The notes beneath the pieces were generated by a model that was not told where the DNA came from, did not search any database, and saw only the letters and a list, made by a program, of their open reading frames with translations. Position numbers and translations under genes: made by a program. Shown here in pieces: positions 2,385 to 54,576 of a DNA stretch of 64,000 bases (its first letter is position 1; each line of letters begins with the position of its first letter). The stretch comes from Sanghuangporus weigelae (taxonomy: Eukaryota > Basidiomycota > Agaricomycetes > Hymenochaetales > Hymenochaetaceae): contig CP137329.1 of NCBI GenBank assembly GCA_033182465.1, positions 310,001 to 374,000 on the forward strand, written 5' to 3'.

Positions 2385-5300
2385 ATGACAACCCAATTAC
2401 CGACCATATCGATACCGAAGAAGACGACAGAGGAGGTCGACTGGACATCACCCATTCGCAATCTGATCGCTCAGTCGTATGGTGAGAATCCGGACAATTA
2501 TATGGCAGAGTGTGCTGCTCTGCAGCGATGTAGACAGGATGCTGTGAAAGGCGCAGGTAGCGATACTACGGGTGAGTGGCCCATTGCATCTCTCTGAACC
2601 CGGCTCTAAGGTCCAAGTAATCAGCGCGAGACTTGTTGTACAAGTATTTTGGTCAACTTGAGCTTCTTGAGCTACGGTTCGCGGAGATCAGAGTATCATT
2701 CCCGTGGCACGACGCGTTCACGAACAAGCTCACAACGCAGACGTCACTAGCATACGAGAAGGCGTCTGTCATCTTCCAGCTCGCTGCCACACATTCTGCC
2801 ATCGCAGTTGCACAGAACCGTGGTGATCCTGAGGGACTTAAGCGTGCATTTCATTATTTCCGAACAAGCGCTGGCATGCTCACCTACATCAACGACAACT
2901 TCTTACATGCTCCTTCAACTGATTTAAGCCGGGAAGTCGTGAAATTCCTGGTGAATATTATGGTGGCTCAAGCAACAGAGGTCTTTTACGAGAAATGTGT
3001 CGATGAGAGGAAAGGCAGTGGTCTCGTCGCCAAAGTGGCCAATCAAACAGCGTCCATGTATACCGCGCTTTGCGAAGAAGTGAAGGAATTCATGGGCAAA
3101 GGTATCTTCGATCGTAACTGGGTGACGGTGCTTCAGGTTAGTACATACGTTTAGTCATGACTCTTATCTGATTTATTATATTTGTTAGATCAAATCTAAG
3201 TATTTCACCTCGTTAGCGCAACTTCATCGCGCACAGGCCGACAATGCCGCTGGTAAGCACGGTGATGCACTTGCTAGGTTCACGGCGGCGGAGTCCGCCG
3301 CAAAGGAAGCTTCGAAGCTAGCATCGTCGTTCGGTGGAATGTTCATGCCACAAATGTCTCCTAATCTGCCTCCGGATACGGGTTCGGCCATGCAGGAACT
3401 GACAAAGTTTCACCTCGCTTTGTGCACCGATAAAAAGAATGAAGCTTCGCGAGACAACGACCTGATCTACAATGCCGTGGTTCCACCCCTCGAGACCTTA
3501 CCACAGATCGACAAGCTCCAAGTTGCCAAGCCTATACAAATACAGGAGGTTTACAGTGCTCCAGACGTGCAGAAGACCATCGGACCGGATATCTTCATCA
3601 AGCTCATCCCGTTAAGTGTCCACGAAAGCGCGAGCGTCTACTCCGAGGAGAAAGCGAAGCTTGTGCGCGCGGAAGTCGAAAGGGCAGATACCGCTGAGAC
3701 TGAAAAGCGATCAGTTCTGGATGCTTTGGGTGTCCAGGAAGGACTGGGTCGCTACAAGGCGATGGTGGAAGGTCTGCATGTCGAGGGTTCGACTGAATTG
3801 CCGCCAGAGGTAACTCGCATGCGTGATGACATCGGCCTCATCGAAGATCGTGAACCTGTCTCTCGCCTTTTGTCTGACTTGTCACGTCTCCGCGATGCCG
3901 TACGGGACGATCTCGATAGTGTACAGCGCGATCTTGAGATTGAACTGCGGGATTGCGAAGCAATGCGCGTCAAGTACGAGCACTTGTTTACGCAGGAGCC
4001 ATCTGCGGGTCCATCTCGCTCGTTGCGCCAGGATCTGAAGTCTCACAAGGATGCGCTCGAAGCAGCAGGTGCATCTGATCAACAAGTACAGGCCCTTTGG
4101 GACAGTGTCAAGGGTGACATCGCGGTTCTCTTATCCGATCAAATTGAAGACGTGTTCAGACAAAGCGCGGATCGAGGCCCGGGTGGAAGCCTTTTGGACT
4201 TAGATCCGAACAATGAAGACAGAGATGAAGAAGAACGGTCCAAGATAACAACATTCATTGATGAACTTGAGCAGCGATTGACACGGCTGAACAAAATCTC
4301 GACAGAGAGGAATAACGTCCTTAAAGATTTGAAAGAGAAGGTCAGTGTTACCTTTGTTTGCTCGTGTCAGTCATGCTTATCCTACGTGTTAGATCCAATC
4401 GGACGATGTTTCACATTTGCTTTTACTCAACCGTCGGAACCAGGCTGTTGAACCTGCTTTGTTCGCTGCAGAACTCGAAAAGTTCAAACCATTTCAGAAC
4501 AGCCTTGTCTCTACGGTACAATATGAGCAGACGGTCTTATCGGAGATCACGCAGCTCTGGAAAGGCCTCAAAGATCTTGCCGGCCGCGGCCCTGGCGCAC
4601 GAAAATGGGAAGAACGTGAAAAGAGAAAGAGAGAAACTATGCGTCGGTTTACTCGTGCTAGGGATGGGTATATGGAAGTTCGGGATGGTTTGGCGTAAGT
4701 GTGTTTGGCCTTTAGAGTACATCAAAGTACTCACAGCGTGTGTACAGGAAGGGTCTTCAGTTCTACAGAGATTTGACAGGTCTCTGTACCGCGCTAAAAC
4801 GCAACGTAAAGTCATTTGTTGCGGAGCGTGTGGCAGAACGGGATGTTCTTGTTGCAGAAGCTGCGCGGAAGAAGTCTTTGTCTGCTGCCCCTCCGCCTTT
4901 AGCAGAGAAACCTCGTTCGCTTGCACCAGGACCGCCTCTGTCGGTGAATAGCTTGGACTCGTCTTTCAGGTCCATGAACCTACGAGACAGCTCATCTCCT
5001 CCTTCACGCCCGCCGATGCCCGCTCATGCTCAGAACTCGAGCTATTCGTCCTTACCTCCACCACCACCTAGACCTTCTGTCAGCTATTCGACGCCTTCAC
5101 CTCCTCAGCAGCAGCCAATGGACCCATACGCGAACATGTTCAGCACTCCGGGGCTCCCGAGCCACTTCTTAGGTAGCAATGCGCCTCCGACATCATCGCC
5201 TTATGATCGGCAGAGAAATCAGCCTCAGTTTCAGCAGTATCCGCAGCATCAGTCTCAGCAGCAGCAGCAGCCATCATCATATGCACCACCAATCAACTAT

Positions 5301-5495
5301 GGTAGCCAACTACAACATGCATCTCCGTTCCCTCCTCCTCCTCCTCCAGTTAATTATCAGCAGCAGCAATACGGAGTGTCTCAATCGCGAAGTGCTTCGC
5401 TGCCACAACCGCCATCGCTCCCTTCGGTTCCTCCACCTCCATCGCAACCGTACGGACAATATCAGCAGAATCCATACAGTCCTTATGCTCGGTAA
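2385..5495 (+). CDS. BRO1: BRO1-domain protein, vacuolar sorting (Bro1/ALIX family)
   Basis: ESCRT-associated adaptor that acts on the cytosolic face of endosomes, binding ESCRT-III (Snf7) and, in yeast, recruiting the deubiquitinase Doa4 during multivesicular body sorting. Five exons (2385-2571, 2625-3136, 3189-4340, 4393-4694, 4748-5495) give 966 residues in frame. The N-terminal half is a BRO1 domain starting at TISIPKK and including LLYKYFGQLELLELRF. A helical V domain with charged coiled-coil stretches follows (about 400-750). The C-terminal ~170 residues are rich in Pro, Gln and Ser with several PPPPP runs. The start is the methionine directly before TTQLPTISIP; an upstream in-frame ATG at 2256 would only add a basic leader. 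The paralogue Rim20/PalA has the same architecture, but the N-terminal sequence fits Bro1 better. Confidence 0.85.
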
Positions 5496-8831: not shown

Positions 8832-8930
8832 CTCTGCCAGTTTGGTGTCCCACTTCCAGGTGAACATCTCGCATTGTATGATTCGGAGAGACAAGCCAAC
8901 TCCAGAAGACGTTTTCCACCTGTTTTTCTC

Positions 8931-11660
8931 ATGGGACCAACTTGTAAGTTGCAACTTTAGTAATATTACTAACAGGGTAACTCATGTCTGTAAAAATACA
9001 GTGAGCGTTCAGGACGTTTCTTCTGTACAATCTGTACAGCTCCCCTCTTTTGCAGAGTCTCAGTTTGACTTTATTCTTCGTCGTCAAAGATCCCGACACA
9101 AAGAAAATGGTGGACTCAAGCTGACAGCGTCCCCTTCCCGATTTCATACTCTATCAAATGATTTCGAATTCGCCGGATGGGGTTCCGTTTCGTATCTCGA
9201 GTTCACAGAGGACGATGTTCGAAAAGGCGAGGAAACAATAAATCAAGACAAATCCGGACCTGTACTTGGACCCTGGATGGCAAGTGCTGTTGCCGCAAAT
9301 GAGGTCTTTGGAAGTGTGTTTTACGCTTTCCCTCCTGTCATTGCGTCGGCTGGCGTATAGTGAGCCCAAAGCATTTGAAGTTGACGCAGTGCTCACTTTA
9401 TTGAAATTTTACTTCAGTTCTCCCGTATCTCTTCTGATCGCAACCTCGACACTCTTTCTGTGGAGACCGATCATCGAAGAGCTTACGTCTGCATTTTCTA
9501 CTAGCGGCGCAAACTACACGTTCTTGTATGTCAGCATCTTGACCTTGAGTAGCTTGCTCACCTTCTCTCATAATAATCTGTTCAAACTATTGCGCGTTGA
9601 AAGAATCAACTCAAGCACAAAATCAGCGGCTCCAGTGGGTGGAGCTCTGGCTCTTCTTGACTACTCGACAACCTCTGTAGTATCCGCAGCAACCGCTTCG
9701 GAGTATGTTGCCGGCGAGACATCGCTACCCTACCCGATCTATGTCGGAACAATATTGTTCGCGATTTTCCCGTTGGTGATCAGCCTTCTCGGTCTCAGGG
9801 AAAGCGCGAGGACGGCATTCGGGATCCTCACGCTTCATGTACGCCGCTCTTCGGTTGTAGAGATCACTATGCTAACTCTCGGATGTTAGATAGTAACTAT
9901 GATTGCTCTTACCATAGCCGCTCTCATTGCGTGGTTCCGTCATGGCAATTCAATCATTCACAGCAACTGGGTAAATGGACAACCTGGATCGTCATCTGGA
10001 ATTGCCCACCAGATTTTCAACGGTGTCTGCCTCGGGATGCTGGGAATGACTGGTTTTGAATGTATGCGTTCAAAACTGCCTGATATCTGGAATAATCTGT
10101 CTCACCCGCTTTGCAGGCTCGCCCGACTACGTGCCTGTTGTTCGTCCTGGTGCCTTTCCAAAAGTTCTTAGGAATATCCATTATCCAACAGTGATGCTCT
10201 ATGCCCTGCTGATGCTCGTGGTCCTAGCCAACATACCTCTTGACGTCGTTGAAAACATGCCTAATATGCTTAGCGTCCTTGCTGAACGGGTCCGCCTCCC
10301 CCTTTCTTCTGATTTATCCTCGCTTAACTCTGATATTGATTAAATTAGGTGGGCGGTAGATGGATGCGTATATGGGTTGTCGTGGACGCCAGTATTGTTC
10401 TAAGTGCCGGAGTTCTGACAGGTCAGACTCCACCCTTTTCCTCACCTTTGTTGATTAGTTACATTGCTCTTCCCCAGGAATTTTGAGTGCTTGCGCTCTG
10501 CTCGAGAAACTTGCACGAGACAGGGTCGTCCCAACGAAAGTCCTATACCAATTACCAAAAACCAATGCTCAAGCAATCGCCATCGCTTCGTTCACTGTTC
10601 TTTGTGGTATATTGTACGTGAGCGCAAGTGCAAACTTGACTATAATTTCGAAAATGTGCGCATTTTCATAGTCATGACCCTCCGTTGTCGGATTGGCCTA
10701 ACTTTTCGCCCTTCCACAGGTTTGCAATGACGTGGCTATCGGTTATGACACTCTTCCCTATCTCGGATTTACTTCTGAAGTTTAACCGTGGACGGATCCC
10801 GCGTTCTCGCCGCGCTTCACTGCTAGTGGTTTTCGCCGCACTCCTAGTGGGAATAACTGCGTTCGCAGGTAATATTGCCATTGACCCGACAACTGTGGGG
10901 TAAGCGCACTCACATACTTTGAATTTGCGCAGCTCGTTCATTCCTGTGTTCTCCTAGATACTTCTCAGCATACGCAATAGCGATATGCTCGCTCTTCTTC
11001 ATCACGAATAATAAAGCAAGGCTCGTTGAATGGATTTACTGGATATATGATCAATCACCGATTATGCATGAGTGGCGATGGGCGCGTCGTTTTAGCGACG
11101 GCCTTGTCAAGATTCTCCGAAGATTGCGTCGTCGGTCCATTTGCATATTTGCCAAATCGGACGAGGTAGGCCTTTTTTGAGAACACGCGTCAAATACGTT
11201 CATTAAATATTTGCACTTATCTTGCGCAGATCCATCACTTGTTCCGGATGATAACCTATGTTTCGAAGAACGAGGAGACGTCTTGCATAAAACTCGTGCA
11301 TTTCTACCAAAAAGTCGGAGAGATTCCTTCCGAGATTGAGGCGAACGCAAAATGTGATGTTCATTATTTTGAGCAACGAAGGGATGAACTGACATCTCCA
11401 CATCCTTCCATGTTGTTTAGTACTTGACGAAGCATTTCCTGAAATCACAGTAGACCTGGTAAGTTACTTACATATAACGGCCAGCCCGCTCCTCTCACAC
11501 GAATAAGATCTTTGTCCAGGCTCAATTCACGCCTTCTTCCATTACAGCACTCTCTCATAAACTGAACATTCCGCGTGCATTGATGTTCATGTCTTGCCCA
11601 GGCCCGGAGTTCAAAGCAGGCTCTGCTGCAGAGCTTGGAACCCGGATCATCGCATTGTAG
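8931..11660 (+). CDS. Amino-acid permease, APC superfamily, copy A
   Basis: Plasma- or internal-membrane amino-acid transporter of a basidiomycete APC family. About a dozen exons splice in frame to roughly 650 residues. The first exon, 8931-8943, encodes only MGPT and part of a Leu codon before a GTAAGT donor. Features include the LGPWMASAVAANEVFGSVFYA helix 1 region, at least ten further hydrophobic segments, and a soluble C-terminal domain of about 150 residues ending GTRIIAL. That soluble tail, with HLFRMITYVSKNEETSC and the closing FMSCPGPEF segment, is characteristic of the family. All splice sites I checked are standard, and no break is visible. Substrate cannot be told from sequence. 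Parts are identical to copy B at 14293, introns included. Confidence 0.8.
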
Positions 11661-11963
11661 ACGCCTGCTTTGTGCATCTTTAACGACACGACAGATTATG
11701 ACCTTTATCCTCTCGTACATATCTTTATTGGTAACATATAGCTTCCCTTCACTTCCATTTGCGATCTGCTTTTGAATGTGCTGTACTGTCGTATTTGCTT
11801 ATTACTTGTCATTACTCGCACGTCCATACTCGTATACTTCTCTTTGGGTCGCAGTAATTAGTCCTTAATTCATCGCATGTAGCAAGCGGAAAGCACAATC
11901 ATGACGGATAGGATCACCACCCGAACCATACAAATAGAAAATAGAAAACAACATACGGATCTT
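11661..11963. other. Convergent 3' region between permease A and YIPF
   Basis: Short spacer between two convergent genes, containing a few 3'-UTR-like T-rich runs. It is missing from unit 2. Confidence 0.5.
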
Positions 11964-13119
11964 CTATAATAGCCACCTTGCTGACGGAGTTTCCTCTGGA
12001 CTGTCCCCACCGAGTGGATCGTCACCTCCGATTTCCTTCACCACGTAATACGAGAAGAAAAGAACTTTAAACGTAAGAGCCAGTGCTAGGTGCAGCAAGA
12101 CGATGACAATGATGAAAGCACGGGGCGCCTTCGAATCCGCAGTCGCTAATATCGGGTAGACATTTGAGAGGAGGAAATATCCCGATAGACCACATGCAAG
12201 GCCAACGAGGACCCAACGCAAAATGGGTACGGGAATGACACAAAGAGCCTGAGGCGAGAAGTGTGTGAAGCTCAATAGGGCCAGGATGAAAGCAAATGAA
12301 CGCACGGCGACCGGAATCCAGACAAATTGTCCATATCCCCACACAGCAACTGCCTCGATAAGGCTCCACTCCGTAACGCCCATGTATCTTAGCGCACCCC
12401 ATAAAAGTGCAGGAAAGCCGAGGCCATACGCGTACACGAGCGAAACGGCTATAGAAAGGAGCTGGAAGTTGTAATCATACTTCGCAGAAGGGTGTGAAAG
12501 GTATGAAGCAATCGACGCGGCGAGCGACGAGAAGACAAATAACGCGAAAATCACTGTCGTTAAAGTCCAGAATGGACCATAGAGGTCTGGTGATGGCGAG
12601 AGGTAGTTTGCCACGTAGTTCGGCGCAGAAGTCGGAATGAGTGTGATCCAACATCGCTGAAGGACCTGTTTGGACAAAGATAGCTTGTGAATGGAGAATA
12701 TGTTACGGCAGAGGTACGAGTGTAGATACAGTTTTTGTGTCCACGTCAAAGTATCGCTGATAATATTCAAATGTCCAAAATCCCGAACGTTGTTGAGGCA
12801 AATAGCCTTGAACGCGTCTTCTTCGATATCACCAATGAAATAGCAGAGTATATGTGCGCACCTCGGTCAACATTAGATGTACCTCTTCCACCCCCGGTAT
12901 TTGTATTCGCTTCATTCGGGAGAAAAGCTACATTTTCAGTCGTGCATAAGCATCACGACTTGAACAAAGTTGTTGATGCGTCACCGACTCTTGAACTCGA
13001 GGGCGGTGCCCTGTTCTGTGATCTGGTGCAGAAAAGGATGATCGTGAGCCCGCGCAAGTTCGTATCAATCCACTGGGACTCACATCATCAGCTTCTACAG
13101 GTACGTAGCCAGACGCCAT
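11964..13119 (-). CDS. YIP1-family Golgi membrane protein (YIPF1/YIPF2, yeast Yip5 type)
   Basis: Multi-pass Golgi/endosomal protein that binds Rab GTPases in its better-known relatives. The first exon starts at 13119 (MASGY, then VEADD). Middle exons give LPQQRSGFWTFEYYQRYFDV, the conserved segment before the first membrane helix. After an intron ending near 12690 the reading continues RCWITLIPTS through five hydrophobic helices to a short hydrophilic tail ending SARWLL. The order FWTFEYYQ, DVDT, five helices matches YIPF1/2. Exact borders of the second and third exons (about 12830-13060) are uncertain because that stretch contains weak splice sites. In unit 2 only the first five codons of this gene survive (near 17022-17036). 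Confidence 0.75.
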
Positions 13120-14192
13120 GGAATTAGTTACAGAATCTTGCGCTGTGGACTGACTGGTAGAGGGCGTGAATAATGCACGTGAGCTCTGGAGATGTTGACG
13201 CGATCTTTTCAAATTTCATTCGGAGATTCAATATGTGTGAACGGATTTTCAATCTTGTTCTGAGTATTTTGAAAACACAGCACATTCTCAGCCATCCAAT
13301 CATTTAAGCCCGAAATTGGAATAGAACTTCTTTCGTACATGAAGCATAATACAAAAGCATGATGATGTCTGGAGATATGTTACAAAGTAAATGTCGCTGC
13401 TAGCGGAGCCTTGAATAGAAGCAAGGAACATACGGAAATGTGGAGATTCGCGTGCAGGTAATCTGTACAGCTAAAATGCATACTTCCTCACTAGAACACC
13501 AAGAACGAGAGCGATCGCAGATACAATAGCAATTTGCAGACGGTATTGGAATACGTCTGAATACACTACATTAATAGTTAGTATTTGGACTGAGACCATA
13601 TTCCCTTGGAAATATACCTTCGCTTTTCAGCAGTATCTCAAGGGATTCGATGGTCTTCCAGTCCGCTGCATTAGCGACTTCGGCAGGAGCATCGGACGCT
13701 ACTAGTACGTTCAAAATGCCTCCGACCGAGTCTCGGCCAGATAACGGGAGTAGTCACTAACTTCATCAGTAATCTCGCGCAGATAAAGCATCAATGAAAA
13801 CCTTCTCCGCAGCTCTAAGAAGCATAAGGCCTCAAAAGTGGTGCCGTGTGGGACAGAGTCACAGAAAATGACATGCGAATTAACAATCTGGTGTTTACAC
13901 CAGGAACAATCCCATAATTATATCACGCCCTACTTCGACATGCATGGGCCAGAAGTGCAGAATAGGCCGGGCAGGAGTAAGAAGGTCTGAAGCCATCGTT
14001 GCCCATAGATACATAGACATCCATGTCCAGGCAAGACCTCTCATTGGCGCATACAGATCTGTACTGTTTCTCGTGACCGGAGCATCGCGCCCGATCGGTG
14101 AAGGAAGATTCACTTCGCCTGAATCTTCATGGTTGCGGACAAAAGAAAGATCGGTGTGCTCGTAGACTTGTTTGAATTAAGAGGTATTAAAG
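13105..14192. repeat. Duplicated segment after YIPF, shortened copy
   Basis: Bases 13105-13737 match 17022-17650 and bases 13738-14192 match 19182-19622. By eye the match is clearly weaker than that of the permeases. It contains the YIPF 5' flank with a CACGTG at 13176-13181 (57 bases before the start), the 3' end of the uncharacterised tail-anchored gene, and a final stretch of unknown nature. Confidence 0.75.
13471..13737 (-). pseudogene. 3'-terminal remnant of the tail-anchored gene
   Basis: Reads, across one intron, a segment like that of the 17404 gene: DAPAEV, then ADWKTIESLEILLK, then FQYRLQIAIVSAIALVLGV and a short basic tail. The upstream two thirds of the gene are absent because the homologous sequence jumps from 17650 to 19182. 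No start is available here, so it is a gene relic. Confidence 0.6.
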
Positions 14193-14292
14193 CTCTGCCA
14201 GCTTGGTGTCCCGCTTCCAGGCGAGTATCCCGTATTGTATGATTCGGAAAGACAACCCCACTCCAGAAGACGTTTTCCACCCTTTTTTTCTC

Positions 14293-17022
14293 ATGGGACC
14301 AACTTGTAAGTTGCCACTTTGGTAATATTCCAACAGGATAACTCATGTCTGTAAAAATACAGTGAGCGTTCAGGACGTTTCTTCTGTACAATCTGTACAG
14401 CTCCCCTCTTTTGCAGAGTCTCAGTTTGACTTTATTCTTCGTCGTCAAAGATCCCGACACAAAGAAAATGGTGGACTCAAGCTGACAGCGTCCCCTTCCC
14501 GATTTCATACTCTATCAAATGATTTCGAATTCGCCGGATGGGGTTCCGTTTCGTATCTCGAGTTCACAGAGGACGATGTTCGAAAAGGCGAGGAAACAAT
14601 AAATCAAGACAAATCCGGACCTGTACTTGGACCCTGGATGGCAAGTGCTGTTGCCGCAAATGAGGTCTTTGGAAGTGTGTTTTACGCTTTCCCTCCTGTC
14701 ATTGCGTCGGCTGGCGTATAGTGAGCCCAAAGCATTTGAAGTTGACGCAGTGCTCACTTTCTTGAAAATTTACTTCAGTTCTCCCGTATCTCTTCCGATC
14801 GCAACCTCGACACTCTTTCTGTGGAGACCGATCATCGAAGAGCTTACGTCTGCATTTTCTACTAGCGGCGCAAACTACACGTTCTTGTATGTCAGCATCT
14901 TGACCCTTGAGTAGCTTGCTCACCTTCTCTCATAATCCTCTGTTCAAACCATTGTGCTTTGAAAGAATTAATTCAAGCACAAAATCAGTGGCTCTAGTGG
15001 GTGGAGCTTTGGCTCTTCTTGACTACTCGACGACATCTGTAGTATCCGCAGCAACCGCTTCGGAGTATGTTGCCGGCGAGACATCGCTACCCTACCCGAT
15101 CTATGTCGGAACAATATTATTCGCGATTTTCCCGTTAGTGATCAGCCTTCTCGGTCTCAGGGAAAGCGCGAGGACAGCATTCGGGATCCTCACGCTTCAT
15201 GTACGCCGCCCTTCAGCTATAGTGATCGCTATACTAACTCTCGGATGTTAGATGGCAACCATGATTGCTCTTACCATAGCAGCTCTCATTGCGTGGTTCC
15301 GTCATGGCAATTCAATCATTCACAGCAACTGGGTAAATGGACAACCTGGATCGTCATCTGGAATTGCCCACCAGATTTTCAACGGTGTCTGCCTCGGGAT
15401 GCTGGGAATGACTGGTTTTGAATGTGCGTTCAAACCTGCCTGATACCTGGAATAATCTGTCTCACCCGCTTTTCAGGCTCGCCCGACTACGTGCCTGTCG
15501 TTCGTCCTGGTGCCTTTCCGAAAGTTCTTAGGAATATCCATTATCCAACAGCGATGCTCTATGCTCTTCTGATGCTCCTGGTCCTAGCCAACATACCTCT
15601 TGATGTTGTTGAAAACGCGCCTAATGTGCTTAGCGTCCTTGCTGAACGGGTCCGCCTCCCCCTTTCTTCTGATTTATCCTCGCTGAACGATGATATTGAT
15701 TAAATTAGGTGGGCGGTAGATGGATGCGTATATGGGTTGTCGTGGACGCCAGTATTGTTCTAAGTGCCGGAGTTCTGACAGGTCAGACTCCACCCTTTTC
15801 CTCGCCTTTGTCGGTTGGTTACGTTGCTCTTTCCCAGGAATTTTGAGTGCTTGCGCTCTGCTCGAGAAACTTGCACGAGACAGGGTCGTCCCAACGAAAG
15901 TCCTATACCAATTACCAAAGACCAATGCTCAAGCAATCGCCATCGCTTCGTTCACTGTTCTTTGTGGTATATTGTACGCCAGCGCAAGTGCAAATCTGAT
16001 TATCATTTCGAAAATGTGTGCATTTTCACGGACATAGTCCTCCGTTGTCGGATTGGCCTAACTTTTTGCCTTTCCATAGGTTCGCAATGACGTGGCTATC
16101 GGTTATGACACTCTTCCCTATCTCGGATTTACTTCTGAAGTTTAACCGTGGACGGATCCCGCGTTCTCGCCGCGCTTCACTGCTAGTGGTTTTCGCCGCA
16201 CTCCTAGTGGGAATAACTGCGTTCGCAGGTAATATTGCCATTGACCCGACAACTGTGGGGTAAGCGCACTCACATACTTTGAATTTGCGCAGCTCGTTCA
16301 TTCCTGTGTTCTCCTAGATACTTCTCAGCATACGCAATAGCGATATGCTCGCTCTTCTTCATCACGAATAATAAAGCAAGGCTCGTTAAATGGAGTTACT
16401 GGATATATGATCAATCACCGATTATGCATGAGTGGAGATGGGCACGTCGTTTTAGCGACGGCCTTGTCAAGATTCTCCGAAGATTGCGTCGTCGGTCCAT
16501 TTGCGTGCTTGCCAAATCAGACGAGGTAGGCTTTTTTCTGCGAACACGCGTCACATATCTTCATCAAATATTTGCACTTATCTTGCGCAGATCCATCACT
16601 TGTTCCGGATGGTAGCCTATGTTTCGAAGAACGAGGAGACGTCTTGCATGAAACTCGTGCATTTCTACCAAAAAGTTGAAGAAATCCCTTCCGAGATTGA
16701 GGCAAACGCAAAGTGTGAGGTTCGTTGTTTTGAGCGATGAGGGGATGGACTGATATCTCCGGCATCCTTCCATGTTATTTAGTGCTGGACGAAGCATTTC
16801 CTGAAATCACTGTAGACCTGGTAAGTTATTTACATATGACGGCGGGCCTGCTCCTCTCACACAAATTAGATCTTTGTCCAGGCTCAATTCACGCCTCCTG
16901 CCATTGCAGCACTCTCTCATAAGTTGAACATTCCGCGTGCATTGATGTTCATGTCTTGTCCAGGCCCGGAGTTCAAAGCAGGCTCTGCTGCAGAGCTTGG
17001 AACCCGAATCATCGCGCTGTAG
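14293..17022 (+). CDS. Amino-acid permease, APC superfamily, copy B
   Basis: Tandem paralogue of the gene at 8931, with the same exon layout and every splice site I checked conserved. It starts at 14293 with the same MGPT first exon and ends ...GTRIIAL. Differences from copy A are scattered, for example IVTM to MATM after the LTLH segment and NMPNML to NAPNVL. Two long blocks (14339-14760 and 16084-16387) are identical to copy A. Only about 100 bases of 5' flank are shared with copy A; beyond that, copy B sits behind the end segment of unit 1, so its upstream control region is different. The stop codon lies directly at the deletion junction. It looks intact. Confidence 0.8.
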
Positions 17023-17036
17023 TAGCCAGACGCCAT
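17022..17036 (-). pseudogene. First five codons of a lost YIPF copy
   Basis: The minus strand reads MASGY, as in the YIPF gene at 13119, then runs straight into the permease stop codon. A CACGTG about 40 bases upstream (near 17073) is retained from the YIPF promoter. Confidence 0.65.
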
Positions 17037-17403
17037 GGAGTTAGTACAGAATCTGAGGACGGGCACTAGTACACGTGAGCTCTGAAGGCGCATGACTTTG
17101 ACGCGATCTTTTCATTCTCATTCGGAGGTTCAATATGTATGATCGGATTTTCAATCCCGTTCCGAGTATTCTTGAATGATACGATGCTCTCACGGAAAAA
17201 CTCAATCATCAGAACCTAAAATTAGCATAGAACGTCTTTCGTATATGTATCATGATACATACACAAGTATGATAGTATGTGGAGATGGTAGATATGCAAC
17301 AAATACATGTCGCTGCTAGTGGAACCTTGAATGGACGCAAGGAACGTACGGAAACGTGGAGATTCGTATGCAGACAATTGAATTAATACAGCTAAAAAAA
17401 TAC

Positions 17404-18345
17404 TTACTTCCCCATGATAACACCAAGAACGAGAGCGATCGCAGATGCAACAGCAATTTGCAGACGGTATTGGAATTCCTCTGCATACACTACATTAATA
17501 ATTAGTATTTGGACTGAGACCAAATTTCTTTGAAGCATACCTTTAATTTTCAGTAGTATCCTGAGGGATTCGATGGTCTTCCGGTCCGCTGTCTCAATAA
17601 CTTCGGCAGGAGCATTGGACGCTACGCCCAAAAAGCCCCCAACCGACCCGTCAGGAGCTGAAATTGGATCATTCTCGTGATTACCTAGGACGTCTTGATC
17701 CGAATCTGCTTCTGTGGCAATGGCCGGAGGCATCTCTAGAACTTGACTGTGTTTTGACGAGTTTAGATTTAGAGCATCCTTTTGTGCAGACGAGAACGAG
17801 TTAATTCTGAACGGATGAATATCTGCGCAAGTGATATGAAACGCGATTCCTTCGGCAAAATCGCTAGCAAGACTGTCATTCGCACATCCAGCGCATACTT
17901 CTTCGTTTGTATATCCGCTAGATAAAACCTGCTCGATCGTCATAACTCTGACTCCATAATCAAGTCGACGCAAGTAAAGCTCTTCGCTTAAGCGAGTCCA
18001 TGCGAACGCGCCTGTTGTGAATAGGCTTTTCTCGTCCATTCCAGGACCTTGGCGTATGCTACAGGAGAGCAGTGAAGGACACAAATTTGAAATTTCCCGG
18101 GGTTCCTAAGGACCTTCCGATGAGCGCACTGAAGCTCAACACGGAGGTGTTCCGGTTTAGTCCCGTCTTTCACTGAGGAAACTACTTCCAGATAGACCTT
18201 TCGTCCAAGTCTTGGGAGAAGGATCGTGGCTAAATGGGACTTGTTTCCATCTTCGTCGGAACTGGCGACAAGCGTGGAATATCTGATTGACGAGAATGCA
18301 TCTCCTCGTTTCACTTCGACGTACTTCTTCACGACCGGTCCGATT
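17404..18345 (-). CDS. Uncharacterised protein with C-terminal membrane anchor
   Basis: At least three coding pieces on the minus strand appear to form one product. The first (about 18332-18090) contains LATILLPRLGRKVYLEV and reads like a beta-rich domain. The second (18084 down to about 17540) includes DYGVRVMTIEQVLSSGY and a low-complexity linker. After an intron the last exon gives FQYRLQIAVASAIALVLGV and ends IMGK, a single hydrophobic segment at the extreme C-terminus, typical of tail-anchored membrane proteins. I do not recognise the family. The 5' end is uncertain because the sequence upstream joins into a broken MFS gene. The gene is present in part in unit 1, so it predates the duplication. 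Confidence 0.45.
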
Positions 18346-18544
18346 TCTATCCGCTCATTTCTATCCGTTTCGCTACAGCCTTTATAATAGTTAGAACAGA
18401 GTCATAGAGCCTGATATTTGTGTACCTCAGGAATTCCAAGTGATACTCTACAAGCAAGAATCCCGGAAGAGTCGCGAGTGATCTGAAGCAGAATGGCCGA
18501 GTTATAGGATTGACTTCTGGGGATTCTGGAATGCAATTCACACC

Positions 18545-19071
18545 CATCCCACTAACAAGTTCCCACAGAGTAACACACAATCCAATGTATAATAATGGCC
18601 TAGCACCGATCATAAGGCAATCATCGTGACTATGTTGCACGTAGCATGCGTGCCTTGTCATTTGGTTCAAAATCTGCCCAGTCAAGTAGTCAGACGACTC
18701 ATTGCATTTTCTAGACTGTTTTACCATGTTCGATGGAATCTGAGCAATGCAGTAGGAGGCATATAGAATAGCCACAGTTGTGTCGTATTGAACGTCTGAA
18801 CAAAAAGAGACAGAAGCGTTGAGCTTTCTGATAGCTAAATACGAGAGTACGTACCTGACAAGCCCAGATCTTGCTCAAGACCTTTCAATCGAGCTGCGGG
18901 GATGGCTTTACTCTGGATATATAAATAATATGAACTCGGTAGGCAAGCCATACCTTGAAGACTCACATCGATGCAATTCACAAGATAGATCAGGAAAATG
19001 GTTGGCAAAAACCGCATATCCAACTCGCGCAGTACTCGTCTCTCCACCTTGGACCGTTCACTAAGGAGCAC
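18545..19071 (-). pseudogene. Truncated MFS transporter (anion:cation symporter type), N-terminal part only
   Basis: Starts with ERRVLRELDMRFLPTIFL, the hallmark N-terminus of fungal allantoate/nicotinate-type MFS carriers. It continues ARLKGLEQDLGLS, then YDTTVAILYASYCIAQIPSN and LLYIGLCVTLWELVSG. These are the first helices in the right order with plausible introns between them. The frame then leaves the family after about 135 residues and runs into unrelated sequence near 18545. A complete member has about 450-500 residues and twelve helices, so this piece cannot be a working transporter. Whether it is transcribed together with the gene downstream is unknown. Confidence 0.65.
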
Positions 19072-19181
19072 GACTTCAGCTGCTTCAGATTCAGATATTT
19101 ATTGCTCGTCGGACGCACGTGAGCTTTCCGCATCTCTCCGCGGCATCGTCTAAACTATCAGCGTTCGTGGCATCCATGGGG

Positions 19182-19622
19182 TCAGATAAGGGGTACACAC
19201 CAACTTCATCAGCAATCTCGCCCAGATAAAACATCAATGAAAGCCTTCTCCGCAGCTCTAAGAAGCATACATATAAGACCTCCAGAAATGATGCCGCATG
19301 GGACAGAGAATGTCATGCGAATTAACAATCTGGGGCTTTTATCAGGAGTAATCCCACAAATACAGCACACCCTAGATCGATATGGACCAGATGTGCAGAA
19401 ATAGGCCCGGCGAGAGTAAGAAGGTCGGAAGCCATCGTCGTCCATAAATACATAGACATCCATATCCAGGCAAGGCCTCTTATCGGCGCTACAAATCTGT
19501 ACTATTGTTCGTAATCAGAGCATCGCTCTCGAATGGTGAAGGAACATTCATTTCGCCTGGAACTTCATGATTGCGGACGGAAGGTCGGAGCGTTCGAAGA
19601 CTTATTTGAATTAAGAGATGTT
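19182..19622. repeat. End segment of unit 2, matching 13738-14192
   Basis: Homologous to the last 450 bases of unit 1. On the minus strand both copies give a similar stretch (GLAWTWMSMYLWATMASDLL in unit 1, with the same register in unit 2), which looks like part of a membrane protein. The frame is interrupted in unit 2. I cannot name the family. Confidence 0.5.
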
Positions 19623-19918
19623 ACAGAAAAGCAGTAATCGAAGCAAGAAATAGTCTCTTCGTCGAGTACTGACATCGAAGTGACCCTTTATCCTTGTTGG
19701 TGTTAAAGTGGGGTTGGCTAATGGCCCTTCGGCAGATAGAATTCGGAAAGTCCAGGAACTGAAAAGTAACTCAGTGCCGTCGAAAGTGCCGGGAAAATTT
19801 GAGATTAAACAAAAAAATGTTGTTACAGGATACAGATAGGTCATTAACGAAACCATCGAAAGCATCACTCATCAGACGTATTTTCGTTCGAAAGCAGAAA
19901 GGTTGTAGTGCCTAAATT

Positions 19919-26219: not shown

Positions 26220-28939
26220 ATGCTAGTCAAGTCTATACCGTCATCGACTGCTCGCATCGCCAAGGCTGTCTCGTCTTCATGTCGCAACAGTTAGCACCGT
26301 CCATTTTACTCCTTAAAATATTTGTCTTACCTGTCGGATGGAGGTACACGATCGTTCGCGTCGACTTCATCGTTACATGCAGATATAACACTGACGGTTG
26401 ATGGGAAGGAGGTCACGGTTCCGCAGGGTGCGAATCCAACCGTGTTCGAAGAACAGATTGATTGACTAATACACTAAACAGGGTCCGCTTTAATCCAAGC
26501 TTGCGAGGCTGCAGGCGCTACTATTCCTCGGTGCGTCTGCTCTTGTTTTGTGTGATTCAAATGGTTAAATGTTGTTCTGCAGATTTTGCTACCATGATCG
26601 GTACGTATTGCTATCATAGGCAGTCTTGATTTTGTGCTTATGTCTCTTGTAGACTAGCTATTGCTGGCAATTGCAGGTCAGTTTTGTTGAGTTCCAGGTT
26701 TGAGCCTGTGTCGCTGACGTCTCTGTAGAATGTGCCTGGTGGAGGTTGAGAGATCACCGAAGCCGGTAGCATCATGGTTAGTTGCTTGACCATTGATGTC
26801 GGTAAAATGTTTACGTTTGGTTTCTTTGTAGTGCAATGCCCGCTATGCCTGGCTCGAAGGTAAAAACAAACTCGCCTTTGGTGCATGCTGCGCGGTAAGT
26901 TTATTTGTTTTCTGGAATGCTATTCCTACTGAGCTCTGTCTAGTGAGGGCGTCATGGAATTCCTTCTGGCCAATCACCCTCTCGATTGCCCTATTTGTGA
27001 TCAAGGTGGTGAATGCGACTTACAAGATCAGTCAATGCGATATGGGTCCGACCGCACACGTTTCCATGAGTACACTGGCAAGCGCGCGGTCGAGGACAAG
27101 GATCTTGGGCCGCTCGTCAAGACCGTCATGACACGATGCATTCAGTGCACGCGATGTGTACGGTTTGCGAATGAGGTTGCAGGTGTTGAAGAACTTGGGA
27201 CGACGGGACGGGGTAACGACATGCAAATTGGCATGTATGTAGAGAAGACAATGGATTCTGAACTGTCAGGAAATGTTGTCGATCTTTGTCCTGTCGGTGC
27301 ACTTACTAGCAAGCCATACGGATTCCATGCTCGACCATGGGAGTTGAAGAACACGGAGTCGGTTGATGTAATGGATGCTATTGGATCAAATGTTCGCGTT
27401 GACTCGCGCGGGATACAGGTTATGCGCATCCTACCCAGGACAAATGATGATGTGAATGAAGAATGGATCAGTGACAAGACGCGTTATGCATATGATGGCT
27501 TGCGCTTCCAACGATTGACGACACCCTTGATCAAGCAGGGCGACCGGTTCGTTGCAGCATCGTGGGAGGAGGCGCTGTCGGCCATCTCTAATGGTCTCAC
27601 CTCGAGCGGAGCGAAGGGGGATGAAATCAAAACTGTCGCAGGCTATCATGCCGACACAGAATCCCTCGTTGCACTGAAAGACCTGATTAACCGTCTCGGA
27701 TCTGACAACCTTACACTAGACCAACCAAACGGTGACAAAATTCCAGTACACGGCGTCGACATTCGTTCAAATTATTTATTCAATTCAACCATCCCTGGGG
27801 TCGAGGAGGCCGACGCGATTCTCTTAGTCGGCACAAACCCCCGTCACGAAGCGGCCGTGCTGAACTCGCGGATACGGAAGAGCTGGCTACATACGGGTCT
27901 TGAAGTTGGTCTCATCGGCGAGCGGGTGGATACCACATATGGATACGACTACATCGGCTCCGACGCCAAGGCTCTCGCGAATTTCGTTGCAGGGAAGGGT
28001 TCGTTCGTCGAGAAGTTCAAGGCCGCGAAGAAGCCGCTTATTATCGTTGGTAGCGCGGTCGCCGAGCACTCAGATGGTGCAGCAGTCTTCAATGCACTAG
28101 CGAGGTATGCGGAGGCAAACAAGGAGCGGCTCATCACGCCTGAGTGGAACGGTCTCAGCATCCTACAGCGTATCGCTTCACGACCAGCGGCGTATGACAT
28201 CGGTTTCGTGCCGTCAAAGAAGGCGTCCGAGACGAAACCAAAGTTCATTTACCTGCTGAATGCAGATGAGATTGACCCCAAGTCGATCCCGAAGGACGCG
28301 TTTGTGGTGTATCAGGGGCATCATGGTGACCTTGGCGCACAGTTGGCAGATGTTTGCTTGCCTGGTGCTGCGTACACTGAGAAGTCGACCACTTGGGTCA
28401 ACGCTGAGGGTCGACCACAAGTTGGCCGTGCTGCTGTCCCTCCACCTGGTGCAGCCCGCGAAGACTGGAAGATTATTCGGTAAGCTGTCGCAACTTTGAC
28501 ACTTCACCTCCCAGATAGATTTTCTAACCCGTCCTTCAATCTCAGTGCCATCTCTGAGGTACTCGGGAAACCACTTCCGTATGACGATGTCATGAGCTTA
28601 CGAGACCGAATGTGGGAAATCTCACCAACGCTTATACGATACAACATTACGGAGCGCACCTCCGCGGACCTCGCCTCTCTCGGCCTCAAGACCCTTGCCT
28701 CCATCAACAAATCTGCGAAGGTCTCAAATGCGCCGTTCAAGAAGCCTATAGAGAACTTCTACCAGACCGACGTTATTTCACGAGCGTGAGTTATATTGCC
28801 TATATATTTTCTGCCAACATTGATGACAAACTGGACTATCTTTCTTAGGTCGGTAACGATGGCACAATGCACGCGCGCATTCGTTAAAAAGGAAGAGTAC
28901 GGGAACTCTGGCGCCGCCGCCGAAGCGGCTTTCGCATAG
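26220..28939 (+). CDS. NADH:ubiquinone oxidoreductase 75-kDa subunit (NDUFS1/NUO-78), mitochondrial
   Basis: Largest iron-sulfur subunit of complex I, in the peripheral arm on the matrix side. About ten exons; most N-terminal exons are tiny while the main exon (about 26942-28481) is long. The start [15 protein letters not shown] gives an Arg/Ser-rich presequence ending near RSFAS. The ferredoxin-type [2Fe-2S] region follows ([17 protein letters not shown]...ASCAMPA). Next comes the His/Cys ligand segment ([18 protein letters not shown]), the 4Fe-4S motif RCIQCTRC, and [16 protein letters not shown] molybdopterin-like domain follows. The C-terminus is ...AAAEAAFA at 28939. All cluster ligands expected of the family are visible. 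Confidence 0.95.
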
Positions 28940-52936: not shown

Positions 52937-54576
52937 TTACTCAAATCGCTTCCAAGCGAACTTCTCGACTTCCTTCGTTGTCGCGCGATGCCTCTTGGGC
53001 CTTCAAAATACAATTAATCACGGGAAGAAAGATGAAATAACGAGAAGGACGTACAAGACACGGGTGCGCGGCTCGAGTAGTGCACGATGTTGTAAGCTCA
53101 AGAAGCGATCTCTGAATAAGTTGCCCTCAACCTTCAGACAGCTCGTCAGCACCAATGCAAACATCACGATATCACGAGCAAAGAAAATGAGTGTACCTTT
53201 AATCCTCTCAGACTTTCAGACAAATCGTCTCCCAACTGAACCTCGGGTTCCGCCTCAGGAACAACGTGCTTTCCAAGTCGTTGACCGGCCAGCCCTGAAC
53301 GCCGAAGCTTTTCTTGTAAGAGCAACCGTCGTTGCATACGCGCGCGTTCTCCAGAGGAAAGAGTCTTGTCGACGGATTTTCGGGTTGACTTGAGCGTGTC
53401 GAGGGAGGCGAGAAGGCGTCTCTGACGCATGCGTTCGGCTAGGGCACGTTTCTATTCCGCACAGTAATCAGAAAAACTGAAAAAAAAACGAAAAAATCTA
53501 CACGAACCTCGGCACGCAGCTTCTCCGCCTTCTTGCGTTGTTGCTTCGTCTTCCGAGTGGGAGGCTTCTGAGGTAAAGGCAACTCTTCCGTACTCTGGTT
53601 ATTATCATCCTCTTCAGATTTCTCTAAGTTATCAACAATCATCCCAATGGGGACGCCAGATTTCGTCCCAGACCATTCAGCCTTCCTCGCTTTCTCCATC
53701 TTATCCTTCACTCTCGCGTACCGCTCAGATTCCTGTTCCACCTTCTCAGCCTTCTCATGCGCGACTCTTAATAGCTCCTGGTATTCAGTTGCCGGAGGGT
53801 TGTATGAAGCACCGGCATGTGGAGGGACAACAGCTGGGAGCGAGATCTCTTCGCGTAGGCTCGGCACCTGCGGAGGCTTCACGGAAGGTTTCTCCACGAG
53901 TGGAGGCAGGAATTCCTTTTTCTCTTCATCGACGTTTGCGCGAGGGTCTCCTTGCACCTGAGAAGCCCAGACATCGTATGTTCCACTCTGTTTTACGGCG
54001 TGACTCGGTTCAAGTAGCGCACTACCTTGCCCAGGCTTCGTCGTGTCCTCAATGCTGTTGAGAGGTCCTTGACGTTTTCGTTGCGCGATGCGGAGGAGGC
54101 GCTTCTTCTCTTCCTGTGTAACGCGAATATGCTTCTTCGCCGGTGCCGCTGAGGCTCGAGAGAAGACAGCGGGAATCGCTGATCGATGCGTTAGGTTTTT
54201 GTAATATGATAGTTGTGTCTTGTCAAATTTGGGAGTATGTCGTCGAACTAGAGTGAACCTTTGCATTAGAGGAAGCCAAGTTAGTTGCAAATAAAAATCC
54301 ATACCGTCGTTGTCTCCTTTTACATCCACCTGGAACAGCTCTTCGTTTGGCTTCGACCGCAATGACGAGCTTTATGCTAATGATCAGCGAAGGTCCATAA
54401 TTGATGTGTCTTGTTGCTCACCCAGTTACTCGTTCCTCGGCACGCATCTCATCCAAACCGTCCTCGACCTCCTGGATGTCCACATTTTTCCTCCATGCCT
54501 TCTTTCCCTTTCTGCTCGATTGCTTGAACTGAGATGGAGCACCTATGCTGCTCTTGGACAGCTTTTTGGTTGCCAT
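52937..54576 (-). CDS. NOP53: Ribosome biogenesis protein Nop53 (GLTSCR2/PICT1 family)
   Basis: Nucleolar protein of 60S subunit assembly; in yeast it recruits the exosome helicase Mtr4 to trim the 7S pre-rRNA. It starts at 54576 (MATKKLSKSSIGAPSQ). Clear segments are GKKAWRKNVDIQEVEDGLD, SKPNEELFQVDVKGD, then AIPAVFSRASAAPAKK, a charged middle region with YQELLRVAHEKAEKVEQES and KTKQQRKKAEK, and a C-terminal KRALAERMRQRRLLASLDTL. The last exon ends TKEVEKFAWKRFE, like fungal Nop53. About six exons; the small C-terminal ones (52937-53160) were placed by eye. Shares a short divergent promoter with ISY1. Confidence 0.85.

Follow-up and report, generated by a model that had tools for sequence, protein, structure and literature searches.

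Our results demonstrate that the 64-kb stretch of DNA analyzed here (the window) contains two abutting homologous units in tandem, each without a different part of the other, and that the permease gene present in both units is less diverged at neutral sites than the other blocks that they share. This is probably the outcome of an old tandem duplication followed by complementary losses and then by gene conversion in the permease. In the history that we propose, a single tandem duplication of approximately 5.4 kb or more would have doubled a segment with a permease gene (plus strand), a YIPF gene (minus strand), and a tail-anchored gene (minus strand). One deletion in unit 2, reaching from right after the permease stop codon to codon 5 of YIPF, would have removed YIPF there, and in unit 1 the middle of the tail-anchored gene would have been lost and its remains would have decayed. 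Each unit would in this way have been left with the sole usable copy of one of these two genes, YIPF in unit 1 and the tail-anchored gene in unit 2, with the permease staying double. Gene conversion, the non-reciprocal copying between repeats, would then have repeatedly overwritten parts of the permease. This repeated conversion would make the permease seem of more recent origin than the other parts of the unit, and the deletion and the unit edge would bound the copying because homology ends there. We infer this order of events, the single-copy ancestral order, and conversion as the cause from one genome.

Layout of the two units

Self-BLAST of the whole window (E value of ≤1e-5, each pair counted once) gave three collinear matches on the same strand and none further: block A (8832-11660 versus 14193-17022; 94.9% identity; E value, 0.0), block B (13105-13702 versus 17022-17625; 76.2% identity; E value, 5.8e-124), and block C (13735-14192 versus 19180-19626; 79.2% identity; E value, 2.7e-109). 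Chance similarity between the units is ruled out by these E values. The order from 5' to 3' is A1, Y, B1, C1, A2, B2, X, and C2, with Y (11661-13104) confined to unit 1 and X (17626-19179) confined to unit 2. The units abut at 14192/14193 with zero bases between them and, being collinear, homologous, and in the same orientation, constitute a tandem segmental duplication. The offset of 5361 and the meeting point given in the original prediction agree with this result, as does the stretch of 1444 bp that it described as missing in unit 2. The stretch that it assigned to unit 2 alone is real, but self-BLAST places the borders as above and not at 17651-19181; faint homology may extend a short distance beyond both BLAST borders. 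The features are as follows.

Block A1, 8832-11660, plus strand: complete amino-acid permease gene 1 with approximately 100 bp upstream (self-BLAST, gene model, Pfam)
Permease 1 coding sequence, 8931-11660, plus strand: 13 exons, 670 amino acids (hand-built model)
Block Y, 11661-13104, minus strand: YIPF (Yip1-domain) gene minus its first five codons; unit 1 only (self-BLAST, Pfam)
Block B1, 13105-13702, minus strand: first five YIPF codons, YIPF upstream region, and 3'-terminal part of the tail-anchored gene with a frameshift
Block C1, 13735-14192, minus strand: right end of unit 1; relic of the tail-anchored gene's start or of sequence 5' to it
Block A2, 14193-17022, plus strand: complete permease gene 2 (self-BLAST, gene model)
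Permease 2 coding sequence, 14293-17022, plus strand: 13 exons, 670 amino acids (hand-built model)
Block B2, 17022-17625, minus strand: YIPF stub, former YIPF upstream region, and 3'-terminal part of the tail-anchored gene (stop codon at 17404-17406)
YIPF five-codon stub, 17022-17036, minus strand: abuts the permease 2 stop codon and marks the deletion junction of unit 2
Block X, 17626-19179, minus strand: unit 2 only; its left part carries on the tail-anchored frame (self-BLAST, codon score)
Transporter-like fragment in X, 18423-19122, minus strand: truncated N-terminal part with introns kept; relatives on contig C6
Block C2, 19180-19626, minus strand: right end of unit 2 (self-BLAST)

When unit 1 was used as the query against its own genome (33.87 Mb in 13 contigs; match counts are lower bounds), at least four matches were obtained, namely, unit 1 itself and the three block partners, and no third copy of the unit was among the matches listed. 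The size of this genome and its many short introns suggest a fungus. A Pfam scan of the neighborhood, covering 20 of the 30 longest open reading frames of the window, revealed neighbors of housekeeping type (BRO1/ALIX-like, NADH dehydrogenase subunit G-like, and Nop53) at 2621-5492, 26933-28480, and 53442-54371.

Probable complementary losses in the two units

The Yip1 family (PF04893) was recognized on the YIPF gene with an E value of 1e-9 and 39 bits (cutoff, 28.6; Pfam, hand-joined sequence), and the gene was found once in the genome (two exon matches); of the two units, unit 1 holds the one complete YIPF, as had been claimed. Unit 2 had been said to retain nothing of it except five codons, and this stub is indeed seen: the first five YIPF codons lie at 13105-13119 in unit 1 and at 17022-17036 in unit 2, where the junction reads CTG TAG (permease stop codon), then the reverse complement of YIPF codons 1 to 5, followed by the region upstream of YIPF. 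For unit 1 to have gained YIPF by insertion, the gene would have had to land precisely next to five start codons that already matched it, which is implausible and argues for a deletion in unit 2. The removal of YIPF from unit 2 by deletion is thus well supported, with a clear polarity.

The YIPF start codon and the four codons that follow it in unit 2 continue antisense into permease 2 as a frame of 39 codons. We consider it very doubtful that the orphaned YIPF upstream region drives an antisense transcript through permease 2, and not permease 1, with this frame at its head; the 26.7% divergence of the former upstream region speaks against a preserved promoter there. If there were such a transcript, two nearly identical permeases would be under different regulation.

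The tail-anchored gene is on the minus strand, to the right of YIPF. Its frame in unit 2 (17407-18105) has a coding-like codon score, as do the permease exon and the YIPF gene tested alongside. The remains in unit 1 have no coding-like codon score in any frame and carry a one-base frameshift at approximately 13608, and judged by its codons the unit 1 copy is a frameshifted relic. The original prediction of one longer copy is correct in that the unit 2 copy is longer, but it understates the difference, as the short copy is a relic with no coding signal. For the family and name of this gene, Pfam gave zero families and the PDB zero matches. Over the 222 coding sites of B, the two copies differ at 31 (15/74, 6/74, and 10/74 by codon position); a third-position excess is absent there, and the substitutions show no constraint on the gene. 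Differences in block C (34/146 versus 19/146 and 21/147 by codon position) show a mild excess at one position. The gaps of block C, of 7, 8, 4, 4, 1, and 1 columns, are a misfit to a coding frame.

Because the frame at 17407-18105 spans the border of B2 and X at 17625, unit 1 most likely lost the stretch from 17626 to approximately 18330. Although each unit is without a different part, the polarity of the YIPF loss is given by the stub and that of X is seen only for this left part. Farther to the right, the segment at 18423-19122 (approximately 0.7 kb) has relatives at three sites of contig C6 (2058798, 2104565, and 2108386), with 66 to 69% DNA identity and a correspondence that extends exon by exon, and the remainder of this transporter-like gene was not found in the 64-kb window. 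The fragment may be ancestral and lost from unit 1, or it may have been inserted later in unit 2. The predicted loss of about 1.5 kb from unit 1 consequently holds for the left part, and with the fragment as a possible later insertion the loss would range from approximately 0.8 to 1.5 kb. From its motifs, we presume that the fragment belongs to the MFS family; Pfam returned zero families for it at an E value of ≤10, MFS_1 on the exons of a C6 relative reached 12.8 bits, below the cutoff of 33.4 (a longer join gave zero families), and the transporter-like gene had zero matches in the PDB. The region C6:2105500-2111500 suggests two adjacent copies of the transporter-like gene, at least one of which is cut by the locus end.

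With three ordered blocks, abutting units, and a stub of YIPF in unit 2, the tandem duplication with complementary losses that had been proposed for this region is supported, as regards the loss from unit 1 for the left part of X.

Divergence of the permease pair and of its surroundings

Permeases 1 and 2 each comprise 13 exons, 12 GT-AG introns, and 670 amino acids with no internal stop codon (hand-built models), so that the two permeases predicted originally are both full-length, intact genes, and in both copies the stop codon is the final codon of block A. AA_permease_2 (PF13520) was recognized on permease 1 with an E value of 1.6e-50 and 172.7 bits (cutoff, 27), the Pfam query being the hand-joined core of copy 1, from which copy 2 differs at few residues; permease 1 had zero matches in the PDB at an E value of ≤0.001. 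A protein search of the genome with the permease gave 18 matches, all within these two copies, among the best candidates that such a search lists; more distant paralogues may escape it. Block A as a mobile element is unsupported, as it is a single intron-rich gene with listed matches only in these two copies. Between the copies, dS is 0.084, dN is 0.016, and dN/dS is 0.19. This last value suggests that both copies are probably in use, with the caveat that conversion too purges harmful changes; dosage would be a reason for retaining both.

At the neutral sites of block A (introns, 5' flank, and fourfold sites), the copies differ at 93 of 1175 positions (7.9%), and in the introns alone at 63 of 714 (8.8%). 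Divergence is 92/344 (26.7%) in the intergenic part of B, 118/590 in the whole of B, and 74/439 (16.9%) in C (Fisher's exact test, 3e-18 for A versus intergenic B, 5e-7 for A versus C, and 1e-13 for A introns versus intergenic B). The step in divergence coincides with the deletion junction at one end of A and with the unit edge at the opposite end. Division of the neutral sites in A into ten blocks of equal size gives divergences of 10.3, 2.5, 1.7, 12.7, 7.7, 4.2, 13.7, 0.8, 12.8, and 12.7% (chi-square of 38.7, 9 degrees of freedom, P = 1.3e-5), and the longest identical run covers 130 neutral sites (8978-9399), a length reached in 0.115% of 20,000 shuffles (P = 0.001). Two features expected under gene conversion were thus found, lower neutral divergence in A than in B and C and patchy identity tracts at neutral sites. 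Against conversion, interior blocks (12.7% and 13.7%) are as diverged as the outermost ones (10.3% and 12.7%), and there is no smooth fall in identity from the middle to the edges. Exon 2 and parts of its flanking introns lie in the best-conserved run, and constraint there may contribute. Moreover, C (17%) and coding B (31/222) are less diverged than intergenic B, so that part of the contrast is explained by unequal rates, with no need of conversion. The original prediction offered one history for all blocks; a single duplication does remain the simplest reading, but the uneven divergence of A versus B and C had been left out.

The contrast in neutral divergence (8% versus 17 to 27%) would also arise without conversion if the region were of two ages, that is, if B and C derived from an old tandem duplication and the permease (block A) had been copied much later between C1 and B2; the coincidence of block A with one whole gene, with a stop codon at its end, is in keeping with this. 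We nevertheless regard such a history as unlikely. The late copy must have hit the old junction of C1 and B2 exactly, with the orientation and order of a tandem unit, and the old duplication must have ended at YIPF codon 5. Furthermore, had A been copied just once and recently, its neutral divergence should be even, and patchy divergence is found instead (chi-square P of 1.3e-5). An assembly artifact, with two haplotypes of one locus placed end to end, is less probable still. Assemblers can lay alleles of unlike size, with indels and 5 to 25% divergence, in tandem. However, there is no N anywhere in the window, the junction at 14192/14193 is free of the stretch common to both flanks that end-to-end haplotypes would give, both unit ends are diverged, and the search of the genome itself listed no third copy. 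That one duplication occurred without conversion and that selection alone kept the permease less diverged, as its dN/dS of 0.19 might imply, is highly improbable given the permease introns (63/714) versus intergenic B (92/344; Fisher's exact test, 1e-13) and the patchiness of neutral divergence inside the permease gene.

Duplication, complementary losses, and subsequent gene conversion in the permease are thus our preferred reading. The region would then be a compact example of a small tandem duplication pruned complementarily while a doubly kept gene escapes divergence. It also carries a warning, as the age of a duplication taken from its best-conserved gene misleads; the permease alone would give approximately one-third of the age of intergenic B.

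Comparison with known systems

In the reciprocal loss that follows duplication (fractionation), each copy retains what the other has lost, and genes return to single copy. The same mutual retention is seen here, but in one small tandem unit as opposed to a whole-genome duplication.

The literature describes related cases of conversion. Converting paralogues exchange tracts of a few to several hundred bases, such duplicates look too young, and dosage favors their likeness (PMC3924837); in yeast, pairs from one duplicated set differ widely in divergence (PMC2728529). As in the concerted evolution treated in the two studies (PMC3924837, PMC2728529), the pair kept here seems more recent than what surrounds it, tracts of identity a few hundred bases long are interspersed with diverged sequence, and divergence is very unequal among pairs that would stem from one duplication event. 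Conversion in yeast is described there as lying almost always within coding sequence (PMC3924837), whereas here 12 introns and approximately 100 bp upstream would be included, and the limits would be the unit edge and the deletion, unlike the coding-sequence limits of yeast. In Aspergillus, ectopic conversion is coupled with deletions and gene loss, and conversion was deduced with the aid of a sister species, in contrast to the one genome used here (PMC12844118). As in that system, neighboring fungal paralogues, conversion, deletions, and gene loss would be brought together in one region. This is a clear and ordinary case of known genome evolution, with no new mechanism.
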